This document shows, in pieces, positions 9,904 through 34,213 of a DNA stretch of 64,000 nucleotides. The stretch's first letter is position 1. Each line of letters starts with the position of its first letter. The position numbers and the translations under genes are program-made. This stretch comes from Candidatus Gastranaerophilales bacterium. GTDB lineage: Bacteria > Cyanobacteriota > Vampirovibrionia > Gastranaerophilales > Gastranaerophilaceae. The notes under the pieces are model-generated. The model saw only the letters and a list, made by a program, of their open reading frames with translations. It was not told the origin of the DNA and made no database searches. The stretch covers positions 682,001-746,000 of the forward strand of contig CALVBD010000001.1 of assembly GCA_944325635.1 (NCBI GenBank). The letters run 5' to 3'.

Positions 9904-10753
9904 ATGCAATTGCCAATTATAGCTTCAAAACTCAGACGGGGGGGGGGGCTTTCGTCTCCGCAAACTTAACACCGGCGCGGTAAAACTGCTAGTTCATCTG
10001 CATTTATTTTATATTGACCAAACTGATTTTTTTATATCAAAACTGCAAAACATTTCCGGAATTGATTTCGATTTATATGTCACAATGAACTGCAAAAATC
10101 CCGAAGTTGAACAAAAAATTCTCGCATTTAAACCTGATGCCAAAATAATTATTGTTCCGAATACAGGCTATGACGTTTACCCGTTTATTTATGTTTTACA
10201 AAATATAAACATTGATGATTATAATTTTGTCCTGAAACTTCATACCAAAAAGAAAATACATGACAGAAACAAAATTTTGAGACCGTTATTGTGGAGTAAA
10301 AAGAAATTTAAGAGTACACTTACAAAAATTATTAAAAATGATAACATTGGAATTATAGGACATAAAATCCAGCAGATTTACGGCGGTTCGCCGGAAGAAA
10401 ATGAAGTATTAAACCCGCTTTTAGAAACTCTCGGAATACCAGCACATAAATATCACCACTTTATTCCGGGAACAATGTTTTTAATCAGAACTGAATTGTT
10501 AAAATTTTTATTACAAATAGAATTTCAACAAGAAGATTTCAAAATTTCTGAAGGCTGCCGAACAGGAGATTATGGAACACTTGCTCATACGCTGGAAAGA
10601 GTTTTCGGCATAATCACAGAATACAACGGATTTATTATAGCAGATATGAAAAATCCGATCGAAAGATTTTTAAATAAACTAATTATCACAAGAAATCTGC
10701 CTGAATATAAGTTGATAAATATTTTTGGAATTAAACTAAAAATAAAACGTTGA
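9904..10753 (+). CDS. RgpF-like glycosyltransferase, out of frame at a poly-G tract (phase-variable?)
   Basis: Similar to rhamnan-synthesis protein F: after the G tract the frame encodes KLLVHLHLFYIDQTDFF and FDLYVTM, then VPNTGYDVYPFIYVL, YNFVLKLHTKKK and FIPGTMFLIRTELL, all typical of RgpF. The ATG at 9904 has AGGAGA 6-11 nt upstream and begins MQLPIIASKLRR, but the run of 11 G at 9938-9948 puts it out of frame, ending at TAA soon after. A run of 10 or 13 G would fuse it to the downstream frame without another stop. The only intact downstream start, ATG 10085, would lose about 60 N-terminal residues. A sequencing or assembly error is the alternative. Confidence 0.75.
9938..9948 (+). repeat. 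Poly-G tract (11 G)
   Basis: Homopolymer 34 nt into the glycosyltransferase gene. At the length seen, the start codon and the body of the gene are in different frames. Confidence 0.9.
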
Positions 10754-10759
10754 ATAATC

Positions 10760-10787
10760 TTGACTTCGAGAATTAATATGCTAATAT
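10760..10787 (+). promoter_or_regulatory. Promoter of the Trp leader
   Basis: TTGACT (10760-10765) and TAATAT (10782-10787) with a 16-bp spacer, just after the glycosyltransferase stop and about 27 nt before the leader-peptide ATG. Confidence 0.6.
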
Positions 10788-10813
10788 AAATTACGCAAAG
10801 GAAACTGTAAATT

Positions 10814-10888
10814 ATGTCACACTTAAATTCAAACGCTCAATCTTGGTGGCGCCTGTCTGAAGAGACAGGGAATTTAAGCTGGCAATAA
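10814..10888 (+). CDS. 24-residue leader peptide with tandem Trp codons
   Basis: A short frame from ATG 10814 to TAA 10886-10888. It encodes MSHLNSNAQSWWRLSEE followed by TGNLSWQ: three tryptophans in 24 residues, two of them adjacent (TGG TGG at 10844-10849). The WWR core is the same as in the E. coli trp leader peptide. Mutually exclusive RNA stems and a terminator follow directly. GGA lies upstream at a longish distance. Its role would be ribosome stalling when charged tRNA-Trp is scarce. Confidence 0.7.
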   Translation: MSHLNSNAQSWWRLSEETGNLSWQ

Positions 10889-10928
10889 TATCTGATATTG
10901 TTCTTAAATATTAAATGACCTGTACTCT
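10852..10928 (+). promoter_or_regulatory. Trp-type transcription attenuator (alternative hairpins)
   Basis: Region 1 CCTGTCT (10852-10858) pairs with region 2 AGACAGG (10863-10869) just after the tandem Trp codons. Region 2, read as AGAGACAGG (10861-10869), can instead pair with region 3 CCTGTACTCT (10919-10928) with a single bulge. Region 3 is also the left arm of the terminator. A ribosome stalled at 10844-10849 would cover region 1 and free region 2 to form the antiterminator, the classical trp-attenuator logic. Confidence 0.7.
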
Positions 10929-10948
10929 TTATGTGCAGGTCATTTTTT
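10913..10948 (+). terminator. Attenuator terminator
   Basis: AAATGACCTGTAC (10913-10925) pairs with GTGCAGGTCATTT (10933-10945) through 13 bp including one G-U, with a 7-nt loop and a run of T. It ends about 48 nt before the next start codon. Confidence 0.85.
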
Positions 10949-10995
10949 GTACCTTTCCACCAACGTCGCAGTCAGATATTATGGAGAAATTACAG

Positions 10996-12165
10996 ATGAA
11001 AACAGATAAAATTACCTTTACAAATTCAAATATTGGATTAGGATTAAAAACCGCCGCAAAAATCGTAAGCATTCAAGAAGGAGGTGCAGGATTATCAAAT
11101 ATAAGATTTATTCAGGATACGGCAACGGGTTTAATTCCGAAAGCAGTCTTTGCAAGAAGTATGGCTGATTTGAGCGAAAATTCTTTTCTTGAACTCTCGG
11201 AATCCGTTCTTGTTTACTACTGTCCCGCGCTTCTCGGACAGATTTTCAAAAATATTTACGCAAAAAATCTTTCGCCTGATATGAAAAATTTTATCACAAC
11301 ACCTGCAGCGGAACTTTTGAAAAAAGGCGGAAAATATAAACCGCTTATGCCGGTAAAAGCAGCAATTGCACTTGGCGCTTTTGCTATCCCTTTAATTGAA
11401 TTTACGCTGAATTACATTAAAAATCTTATGACTTTGAAGGTTTTCAAACAGGGGAATTTTGAAAATATCGCAAACCTCAATAAAGATAAAAATATTGATA
11501 AAATTTTTAATTCAAAAGTAGAAAAAAGCGCGAAAAAAAATATCCTCTCTGCCGCAGGAATTTATACAGGATGTCTCGCTCTCGGAGCCCTTCTTGCGAC
11601 AAAAGGTAAAAATTCAAAAACTCTTCAAAATATCTCGGAAACAATCCTTGCACCTGGAACAAAATTCTTTAAAAATAATAAGAAAAAAGCTGATTTTGTG
11701 AACAGATATTTCAGCATAGATTTTGCGGATAACAACGGCAAATTCGCGCTCAGCAAGGGTCAGTTGACATCGTGTGTTCTGGTCGGCGGAGCCGGATATT
11801 TCGGAGCCTCAAAAGACAGAGGAAAACAAAATTTCTTAGAAACTCTTTTCCGCTTCCCGCTCGTCGGCTTTTACATAATCTGCGGCAACGAACTTCTTGA
11901 AAAAGGATTCCGCAAACTCTTATACAAAAACAACAAATGCCGCGATTTAATTAACGAAAAATTAGAAGTTCCACAATTAAAAGATTTGAAAGAAATCGCA
12001 CTTAAAAAAGGCGGTAATTTTGATGAAGTTTACAAAAAATTACTAAAACAAAAATGTCTGATAGCTGGAGTGCCACTTCTTTTCGGAATAGGAATAATGG
12101 GATTTTTCATCGCTGGAACCTCAAACCTTTTCACCAAATATAGATACAATAGAGAAAGGCAATAA
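10996..12165 (+). CDS. Uncharacterised membrane protein under Trp-attenuator control; contains no Trp
   Basis: 389 residues of unknown function. Hydrophobic segments lie near residues 115-135 (AAIALGAFAIPLIEFTL), 180-205 (LSAAGIYTGCLALGALLA), 250-300 and 360-378 (GVPLLFGIGIMGFFIAG), with lysine-rich stretches between. The N-terminus KITFTN resembles the F-T-S motif of other lineage-specific proteins here. There is no tryptophan in the whole protein, notable because the gene lies directly behind a tryptophan attenuator. I took ATG 10996 because GGAG lies 9 nt upstream; ATG 10981 would add five residues. No trp gene is close by. Confidence 0.7.
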   Translation: MKTDKITFTNSNIGLGLKTAAKIVSIQEGGAGLSNIRFIQDTATGLIPKAVFARSMADLSENSFLELSESVLVYYCPALLGQIFKNIYAKNLSPDMKNFITTPAAELLKKGGKYKPLMPVKAAIALGAFAIPLIEFTLNYIKNLMTLKVFKQGNFENIANLNKDKNIDKIFNSKVEKSAKKNILSAAGIYTGCLALGALLATKGKNSKTLQNISETILAPGTKFFKNNKKKADFVNRYFSIDFADNNGKFALSKGQLTSCVLVGGAGYFGASKDRGKQNFLETLFRFPLVGFYIICGNELLEKGFRKLLYKNNKCRDLINEKLEVPQLKDLKEIALKKGGNFDEVYKKLLKQKCLIAGVPLLFGIGIMGFFIAGTSNLFTKYRYNRERQ

Positions 12166-12962: not shown

Positions 12963-13301
12963 ATGAATACCACCCAAAAAGCAAGAACTCTTAGAAAAAA
13001 TATGACAAAACAAGAAAGAATACTTTGGCAGTTTCTAAGAAAGAAAAGTATTTATGGACTTAAATTCAGACGACAATATCCAATAGGTAATTATATTGTT
13101 GACTTTATATGTAATGCAAAGAAATTAATTATAGAAATTGATGGCGGACAACATAACGAAGATAAAAACATAATCTACGATAAAGAAAGAACAAAGTATC
13201 TTGAAACTAAAGGTTATAAAGTAATACGATTTTGGAATCATGATATTGATAACAATATAGAAAGCGTTTATCGAGAGATATTGAAACATTTGGTTGATTA
13301 A
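12963..13301 (+). CDS. DUF559 endonuclease-domain protein embedded in a repeat array
   Basis: 112 residues matching the DUF559 / very-short-patch-repair-like nuclease family (PD-(D/E)xK fold): KNMTKQERILWQFLRKK, FRRQYPIGNYIVDFIC and IIEIDGGQHNE then GYKVIRFW. The Asp of VDF and the Glu of IEIDGGQH are the expected catalytic acids. The start codon has no clear ribosome-binding site. Repeat units lie immediately on both sides, with the gene occupying the place of a spacer between hairpin B of one unit and hairpin A of the next. Family function is not settled; a role in moving or maintaining the repeats is inference. Confidence 0.88.
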   Translation: MNTTQKARTLRKNMTKQERILWQFLRKKSIYGLKFRRQYPIGNYIVDFICNAKKLIIEIDGGQHNEDKNIIYDKERTKYLETKGYKVIRFWNHDIDNNIESVYREILKHLVD

Positions 13302-33405: not shown

Positions 33406-34213
33406 GAAATCTTTCCAGTAACTTTTTGAAGGATCTAACGGACTTGTATCGGTTATTGCATAATATGCACATGTATATGTAGAGCGTGTTGTAGTATAAT
33501 TGCAAAATTTTGACGGATCATCTAAATCTTCTCCGTACCCAACCTCAGAACTTCCGATATAAGGTTTTACAACTCCGTCTTTGAACACAAAGACGAACCA
33601 ATCATAACCATAAATATTCGGTCCCTTTTTCCCATTTATATCAACACAGATTTTGGGTCCATAATCCAAAGTCGCATATCTATCTGTTAACAGGTTATCC
33701 ATGACATAAATTCGTCCTGAAATCTCTTGAACCGGTACACTTTCATCACAGGGATTTCCGCTTTTTATAGTAACACCTGATAATGCTTTTGGTGTAAAAC
33801 CGAGTTCATCCTCCCAATTCGGGGCAGCGGTTGCATCATCATCATCTGTTCCTGACATATACTTTGTTCCGGCTTTATCGCCTATAAAATATGACATAAA
33901 TTTTTTTAATACGCTAGTTGAGTCAAATATATTTCCATCTACAGGATGAGTATCTCTAGCATATTCCGTAACAGTCACATTTTCTTTGGCTTTAAAGAGA
34001 ATAGCAGCATTATTCAAATCACTATAAGTTTTTAAGAATTGTGTCTGCAATACTTTTTTTCGATGGTTAGTAACCAGAGTCGGAAGCGTCATAGCCGCAA
34101 CTATCCCTATTATGCCAAGCGTTATTAGCACTTCCGCTAATGTAAACCCTTTTACTGAGAGGTTTCTAGGCTGCCCCCCCCCCCGCAAATCCAATCATAG
34201 CAACAGTTTTCAT
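33397..34213 (-). CDS. Prepilin-like protein, out of frame at a poly-G tract (phase-variable?)
   Basis: The body encodes a prepilin: NLSVKGFTLAEVLITLGIIG (Gly at -1), CVDINGKKGPNIYGYDWFVF and ending SPLDPSKSYWKDFLK. It is a close paralogue of the gene at 18553. The likely start is ATG 34213, with AAGGAG about 8 nt upstream, reading MKTVAMIGFA into a run of 11 G (34174-34184 on the plus strand as C), then a stop. With 10 or 13 G the frame would continue GGGQPRNLSVKGFTLAEV. A TTG at 34194 lies in the right frame but has no ribosome-binding site. An assembly error in the run is possible. Confidence 0.78.
34174..34184 (-). repeat. Poly-G tract (11 G on the minus strand)
   Basis: Homopolymer about 30 nt into the prepilin gene; the second such tract in this window, with the same length and the same one-base offset from the open frame. 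Confidence 0.9.

Follow-up and report, generated by a model that had tools for sequence, protein, structure and literature searches.

What would a tryptophan attenuator be doing upstream of a non-trp gene? The question is raised by positions 10760-10948 of a 64,000-nucleotide stretch of DNA, here called the window, from the 2.0-Mb genome of a Candidatus Gastranaerophilales bacterium (class Vampirovibrionia, phylum Cyanobacteriota), the closest relatives of which are metagenome-assembled genomes of Candidatus Gastranaerophilales or Candidatus Scatousia. Tryptophan attenuators are textbook switches, known before genes for making Trp or for charging tRNA, mainly from Proteobacteria and Actinobacteria. 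The original prediction, made from the letters of this sequence, described a promoter, a leader frame, a 1:2 hairpin, an alternative 2:3 pairing and a 3:4 terminator with T-run ahead of an uncharacterised membrane-protein gene. We found every one of these elements in place; they are listed here with further features that the comparison added:

10760-10765 and 10782-10787, plus strand: sigma-70-like promoter found by promoter scan, with -35 TTGACT (10760-10765), a 16-nt spacer and a TG-extended -10 TAATAT (10782-10787)
10797-10804, plus strand: Shine-Dalgarno-like sequence of the leader, AAAGGAAA, with AAAGGAAA-like sequences in relatives
10811-10830, plus strand: segment alpha, the leader start-codon region and codons 2-6, partner of alpha' at 10870-10889 (folding; permutation test)
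10814-10888, plus strand: leader ORF, ATG 10814 to TAA 10888, 24 codons, MSHLNSNAQSWWRLSEETGNLSWQ, its frame kept across genera
10844-10849, plus strand: two adjacent Trp control codons, TGG TGG; 78 of 79 distinct orthologous loci have the pair and the remaining one a single Trp codon
10852-10858, plus strand: region 1, partner of 10863-10869 (folding and covariation)
10861-10869, plus strand: region 2, partner of region 1 or, as antiterminator, of region 3 at 10919-10928 (folding and covariation)
10870-10889, plus strand: segment alpha', the end of the leader ORF with the third Trp codon and the stop; its TGGC and the TA of the stop are invariant in 30 long leaders
10880-10882, plus strand: third Trp codon, within both the leader ORF and alpha'
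10888-10896, plus strand: 5' side of an extra helix flanking the terminator (covariation in 17 sequences of close genera)
10913-10948, plus strand: 3:4 intrinsic terminator, stem 10913-10925/10933-10945, T-run to 10948, region 3 core 10919-10928 (folding; compensatory changes in 7 of 10 pairs)
10971-10977, plus strand: 3' side of the extra helix, past the terminator and directly ahead of the gene's Shine-Dalgarno (same covariation, 17 sequences)
10983-10986, plus strand: Shine-Dalgarno GGAG of the controlled gene
10996-12165, plus strand: controlled gene, encoding a 389-aa Trp-free membrane protein of no known family (translation; orthologs)

Relatives have a similar TTGAC ... TG-TTA at the equivalent promoter position, and, large frames aside, no other small frame in the 64 kb window encodes WW. 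Rfam family RF00513 (Trp_leader) gave no match to the window's leader at its gathering score. Weak sub-threshold RF00513 matches at C1:52500 and C1:343958 were discarded, as they are a tRNA region and an ordinary terminator with no Trp leader. The only Rfam match in the window is a tRNA, and a T-box riboswitch was not among the matches there.

Several other features of the window deserve mention in their own right. Upstream of the promoter lies an RgpF-type glycosyltransferase gene (start 9904; body 10085-10753, PF05045) with an 11-G tract at 9938-9948, 12 codons into the gene. As read, its frame closes soon past the tract, and the body is in the next frame. Similar genes beginning MQ..IIASxLR followed by a G tract are found in relatives, at loci L017 and L018 (G11) and L019 (G12), and the arrangement resembles a contingency locus under phase variation. 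Another run of 11 bases (G11, minus strand) at 34174-34184 comes directly after the start of a gene for a type IV pilin-like protein (GFTLAEVLITLGIIGIVAAMTLP) and breaks the frame from the apparent ATG, a possible second contingency locus. Downstream, a DUF559/REase-like endonuclease gene (12963-13301) adjoins a stretch that translates to SPPQSGE-like repeats.

We asked how the leader RNA folds. Hairpin 1:2 (10852-10858/10863-10869) has a predicted energy of -11.5 kcal/mol, and the 3:4 terminator (10913-10925/10933-10945, with T6 to 10948) one of -18.9 kcal/mol. Folding also confirmed the predicted 2:3 pairing with one bulge (10861-10869 with 10919-10928), at -19.0 kcal/mol when regions 1 and 4 were omitted. 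The 107-nt leader folds at -38 kcal/mol, compared with -20.8 +/- 3.2 for shuffled sequences (z = -5.5; none of 200 as low).

To follow the leader through relatives, whose genomes are all drafts or assemblies, we trained a covariance model on 17 close loci and searched 383 Gastranaerophilales genomes with it. Among the 46 best matches (E <= 7.5e-5), 45 directly precede a gene homologous to the controlled gene of the window, at 53-100% identity; tandem TGG is present in all 45, and the single exception has no Trp codons. Weaker model matches in G041 and G159:C2, with neither a Trp leader nor a gene of this membrane-protein family, were rejected, as were pattern matches in G023, G029 and G058 that fall inside long genes of another kind. 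The gene family was also searched by profile, and 79 distinct orthologs were examined with their upstream regions, the loci being sampled rather than exhaustive. A Trp-codon leader precedes all 79. TGGTGG is present in 78; the 79th (L136, genus g9) has a single-Trp-codon leader followed by the same hairpins. In the upstream regions of 10 paralogs, such a leader was absent from all 10, and in a quick tree a single branch separates the leader-bearing orthologs from the leaderless paralogs.

The tandem Trp codons and stems, on whose presence in relatives the original prediction depended, are thus conserved across the order, and in all cases checked the gene behind the leader belongs to the same membrane-protein family. 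Both sequence and comparison support the claim of a Trp attenuator before a non-trp gene. Since the gene neighbourhood varies between genera, leader and gene travel together, and they appear to form a one-gene unit. The original prediction had also pointed out that the WWR core equals that of the E. coli trp leader. The resemblance exists but is incidental: other leaders have H, C, Q, N, S, Y, L, G or W after WW, and only the tandem Trp is conserved.

Compensatory changes, proposed in the original prediction as a check on regions 1-4, were found in all three helices. Among 30 aligned long leaders from several genera and families (related sequences are included in the counts), 92% of cells were paired for helix 1:2, 87% for 2:3 and 96% for 3:4, with 5, 6 and 7 doubly changed pairs, respectively; slid controls gave at most 45% pairing. 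The four segments change jointly, from CCTGT/ACAGG/CCTGT/ACAGG to CTTGCA/TGCAAG/CTTGCA/GCAAG in L142, and in genus g47 the segment ends GACC/GGTC become GCC/GGC. L120 (genus g24) carries unrelated segments (GGGTTAGT/AACTACCC/GGGTAGTT/CTGCCCG) in the same order of complementarity, with no T-run after them. A clear T-run terminator was not found in genera g24 and g6, where the Trp leader is kept. The extra helix (10888-10896/10971-10977), which covaries in 17 sequences of close genera, is formable only in readthrough RNA. Because region 2 pairs with both region 1 and region 3, with compensatory change in each, the RNA is predicted to fold in alternative ways; on the evidence of per-helix covariation and folding, 1:2, 2:3 and 3:4 are mutually exclusive pairings. 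Judged from this anatomy, 10760-10948 is very probably a complete ribosome-mediated Trp transcription attenuator.

We examined the trp genes themselves. In the window's genome, trpS was found and trpB and trpD were not; because the latter two are missing, the organism is very probably a Trp auxotroph. Orthologs of the controlled gene also occur in some trpB-bearing genomes (g47, g6, g21, f6, f7), so auxotrophy alone does not explain where the gene occurs, and with the gene in both kinds of genome no simple link to trpB absence was apparent by eye. Neither the full trp operon of G046 nor the trpB of six other relatives (~127 kb from the seven relatives) has a WW leader. The leader family likewise does not have the downstream genes of a Trp biosynthesis operon leader, as a membrane-protein family, not trp biosynthesis genes, follows it. 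Three relatives of family f1 (G032, G035 and G019; loci L162, L163 and L165) have a stand-alone trpB without neighbouring trp genes, which suggests indole salvage, and the TrpB proteins of these loci are likewise without Trp. G012 has two full-length trpS genes (C6:93021 and C24:19081), and other genomes of its genus have one.

These data bear on the two readings offered in the original prediction, a new Trp-starvation function or a leader that outlived a lost trp operon. The first is consistent with our results. The second, or a chance resemblance, would fit the lack of trp genes nearby and nothing more. We find it scarcely credible, as the same gene follows the leader in several families and in differing neighbourhoods, with compensatory changes; region sequences have been replaced wholesale with pairing retained; and the trp genes of the relatives examined, a full trp operon included, carry no leader.

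Comparison of the leaders revealed two forms. In the long form (the window; genera g1, g7, g8, g22 and g47; families f6 and f7), the ORF extends across regions 1 and 2 to a ..W[QRH] stop beyond region 2. The short form, ..WWRL stop, terminates inside region 1, as in E. coli. On a quick tree with a midpoint root, the long form lies at the base, and the short form makes up one large clade and a few single rows. The real leader of L066 is of the long form, with an unrelated TGGTGG upstream of it. In L032 and L033, a second mini-frame, MSFLRLFWQ, lies between the short leader (MKYTGFLNLNNRWWRLSV) and the gene; it ends in WQ-stop like a long leader and is perhaps a long-form remnant.

In the window, pairing of alpha (10811-10830) with alpha' (10870-10889) buries the leader start codon. 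Helices of this type recur in long leaders with varying sequences, such as CTTAAATT/AATTTAAG, CAACAAAAC/GTTTTGTTG and CTCAAAA/TTTTGAG, and not each is significant alone. Across 14 representatives, the mean complementarity score was 11.5 for matched segments and 8.6 for swapped ones, and none of 20000 permutations scored as high. We infer that alpha:alpha' closes the long leader once the ribosome has left. Since the long-form stop is too far downstream of region 2, a ribosome terminating there mostly would not cover region 2; we propose that alpha:alpha' closure would substitute for a ribosome at the stop in shielding this region. The invariant third Trp codon was considered as a second control codon and rejected. 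It lies within alpha', and because alpha' pairs with the leader start and covaries with it, a structural role is preferred. The family thus displays attenuator rewiring, with long leaders, short leaders and swapped region sequences, while the logic is preserved.

Might the leader peptide instead act by its sequence, through a TnaC-like arrest that responds to free Trp or another ligand, or in trans like peTrpL? Long leaders do have ..WWxLxxxxGxxxW[QRH] in common, and Sinorhizobium has a Trp leader peptide known to act in trans (PMC7298713). However, the shared residues other than the Trp codons fall on the covarying paired segments 1, 2 and alpha', and other genera retain just WWRL with the stop directly after. 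The hallmarks of a TnaC-type arrest peptide were also not found, as no Pro precedes the stop and the peptide ends differ between genera. Action by peptide sequence is therefore improbable.

A model based on control by the tandem Trp codons is as follows. When Trp is plentiful, the pioneer ribosome would pass these codons, reach the leader stop and depart. The leader would then close on itself through alpha:alpha' and 1:2, locking region 2 away, and the 3:4 terminator would end transcription. When Trp-tRNA is scarce, the ribosome would stall on TGG TGG and cover alpha together with region 1, which would leave region 2 to pair with region 3. The terminator would be blocked and RNA polymerase would enter the gene, the almost Trp-free product of which could be made under Trp starvation.

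What, then, is the product? The controlled protein has 389 aa, is Lys-rich, contains no Trp and has three or four hydrophobic segments. Sequence searches of Pfam, NCBIfam, PHROGs, PADLOC and PDB returned no match. An AlphaFold model built from 15 relatives had a mean pLDDT of 54, and a Foldseek search with it against PDB found nothing below E 3.8, so we make no claim about the fold. Among 292 genomes of the phylum, the family is confined to this order apart from three weak partial matches (E 1e-4).

The Trp content of the family is more informative. The 79 orthologs contain 5 Trp in 31,937 residues and the 10 paralogs 21 in 4,236, against a local background of 0.55-0.77%. Two Trp sites are common to the paralogs; the orthologs have Leu at the first (73/79) and Phe at the second (75/79), a replacement in the leader-bearing branch that rests on one split in the tree. 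Four orthologs that retain Trp at the first site are early-branching. Because Trp-free proteins of at least 350 aa are not rare in these genomes (7/60), we place weight on the family pattern and the replaced sites, not on one Trp-free protein. The contrast between the Trp-free protein and its leaderless, Trp-containing paralog is an independent clue that points in the same direction as the leader.

The Trp content also helps to evaluate a more general switch. Any stall over region 1, such as one caused by antibiotics, would release region 2, and the Trp codons could be merely slow codons in a leader that opens the gene under translation stress; such attenuators exist, as at B. subtilis bmrCD (PMC4191407). 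This is unlikely here, since the tandem Trp is invariant in the leaders while neighbouring codons vary, and the protein avoids Trp specifically, with C, F and Y all present.

A further reading is that the Trp-free protein does the job of the Trp-containing paralog and replaces it when Trp is short, much as zinc-free ribosomal protein paralogs replace zinc-binding ones. This would fit the division between paralogs, with two conserved Trp sites and no leader, and orthologs, with a leader and both Trp lost, and also the presence of both forms in several genomes (such as G046, G155, G246 and G081). Yet in genus g1, including the window's genome, we found the leader-bearing form only, with one match in each genome, and there would be nothing to replace. 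Moreover, the paralogs score ~390-450 bits, versus 540-700 for the orthologs, so functions may differ. We regard replacement of the paralog as possible but unlikely.

Our main reading, to which we assign a probability of roughly 0.8, is that the attenuator senses charged tRNA-Trp and controls a single gene whose product helps a Trp auxotroph through starvation. Anatomy, conservation, covariation and the lack of Trp in the protein argue for it; the missing clear T-run terminator in g24 and g6 and the orthologs in trpB-bearing genomes weigh against it. We infer the Trp response and its sequence of steps, on the model of established attenuation, and likewise what the protein does. Taken by itself, a Trp-starvation role for the controlled protein is likely on the sequence evidence. 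No specific activity reaches even odds in our estimation. The role most likely lies in obtaining or sparing Trp, or in surviving its lack; our first guess is uptake of Trp or Trp-containing peptides, although a secondary transporter would be expected to have more than three or four hydrophobic segments. The product may acquire Trp or Trp-peptides, stand in for the paralog to spare Trp, or act in membrane stress. More tentatively, the protein could be the sole effector of a new Trp-starvation response in Trp-auxotrophic gut Vampirovibrionia, possibly a Trp-sparing isoform made when Trp-containing relatives cannot be, under an attenuator with a leader ORF that spans the 1:2 hairpin and folds back onto the ORF's start codon. 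The attenuator offers a physiological signal open to direct test, Trp starvation, for an uncharacterised membrane protein specific to this lineage, in a group of uncultured gut bacteria with few functional handles.

How does this attenuator compare with known systems? Like E. coli trpL (RF00513), it has a short leader ORF with tandem Trp codons directly ahead of region 1, four segments with mutually exclusive pairings and an intrinsic terminator. In E. coli, too, distal leader RNA pairs back on the leader's ribosome-binding site, as alpha:alpha' does here. Unlike trpL, the present attenuator controls a lone membrane-protein gene and has no RF00513 match, and its long-form ORF spans regions 1 and 2, with the stop after region 2.

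In Actinobacteria, Trp attenuators occur at trp operons and at trpS (PMC1262725). They resemble the present one in their double or triple Trp codons, their terminator and antiterminator, and their reach beyond the biosynthetic operon (trpS). Their targets, however, are enzymes of Trp synthesis or tRNA charging, whereas here the target is an uncharacterised protein. A small membrane protein of unclear function also adjoins a Trp attenuator and trp operon in C. glutamicum, where TrpP, an SdpI-like protein of ~17.7 kDa, is encoded beside the trp operon (PMC11995493); the present protein, in contrast, has no Pfam family and stands alone. In Trp-auxotrophic Chlamydia, proteins needed under Trp limitation were proposed to be Trp-depleted (PMC3937554). 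Unlike in that case, Trp depletion here coincides with a dedicated Trp attenuator ahead of the gene.

According to a 2016 survey (PMC4833913), reliable data on attenuation were lacking for cyanobacteria; the non-photosynthetic gut bacteria studied here belong to the same phylum. In the literature on Gastranaerophilales or Melainabacteria and tryptophan, we found no report of such a switch. The kind of switch is already known from the systems above; what appears to be new is its target, its lineage, the long leader that closes on itself and the combination of a Trp attenuator and a Trp-free protein.
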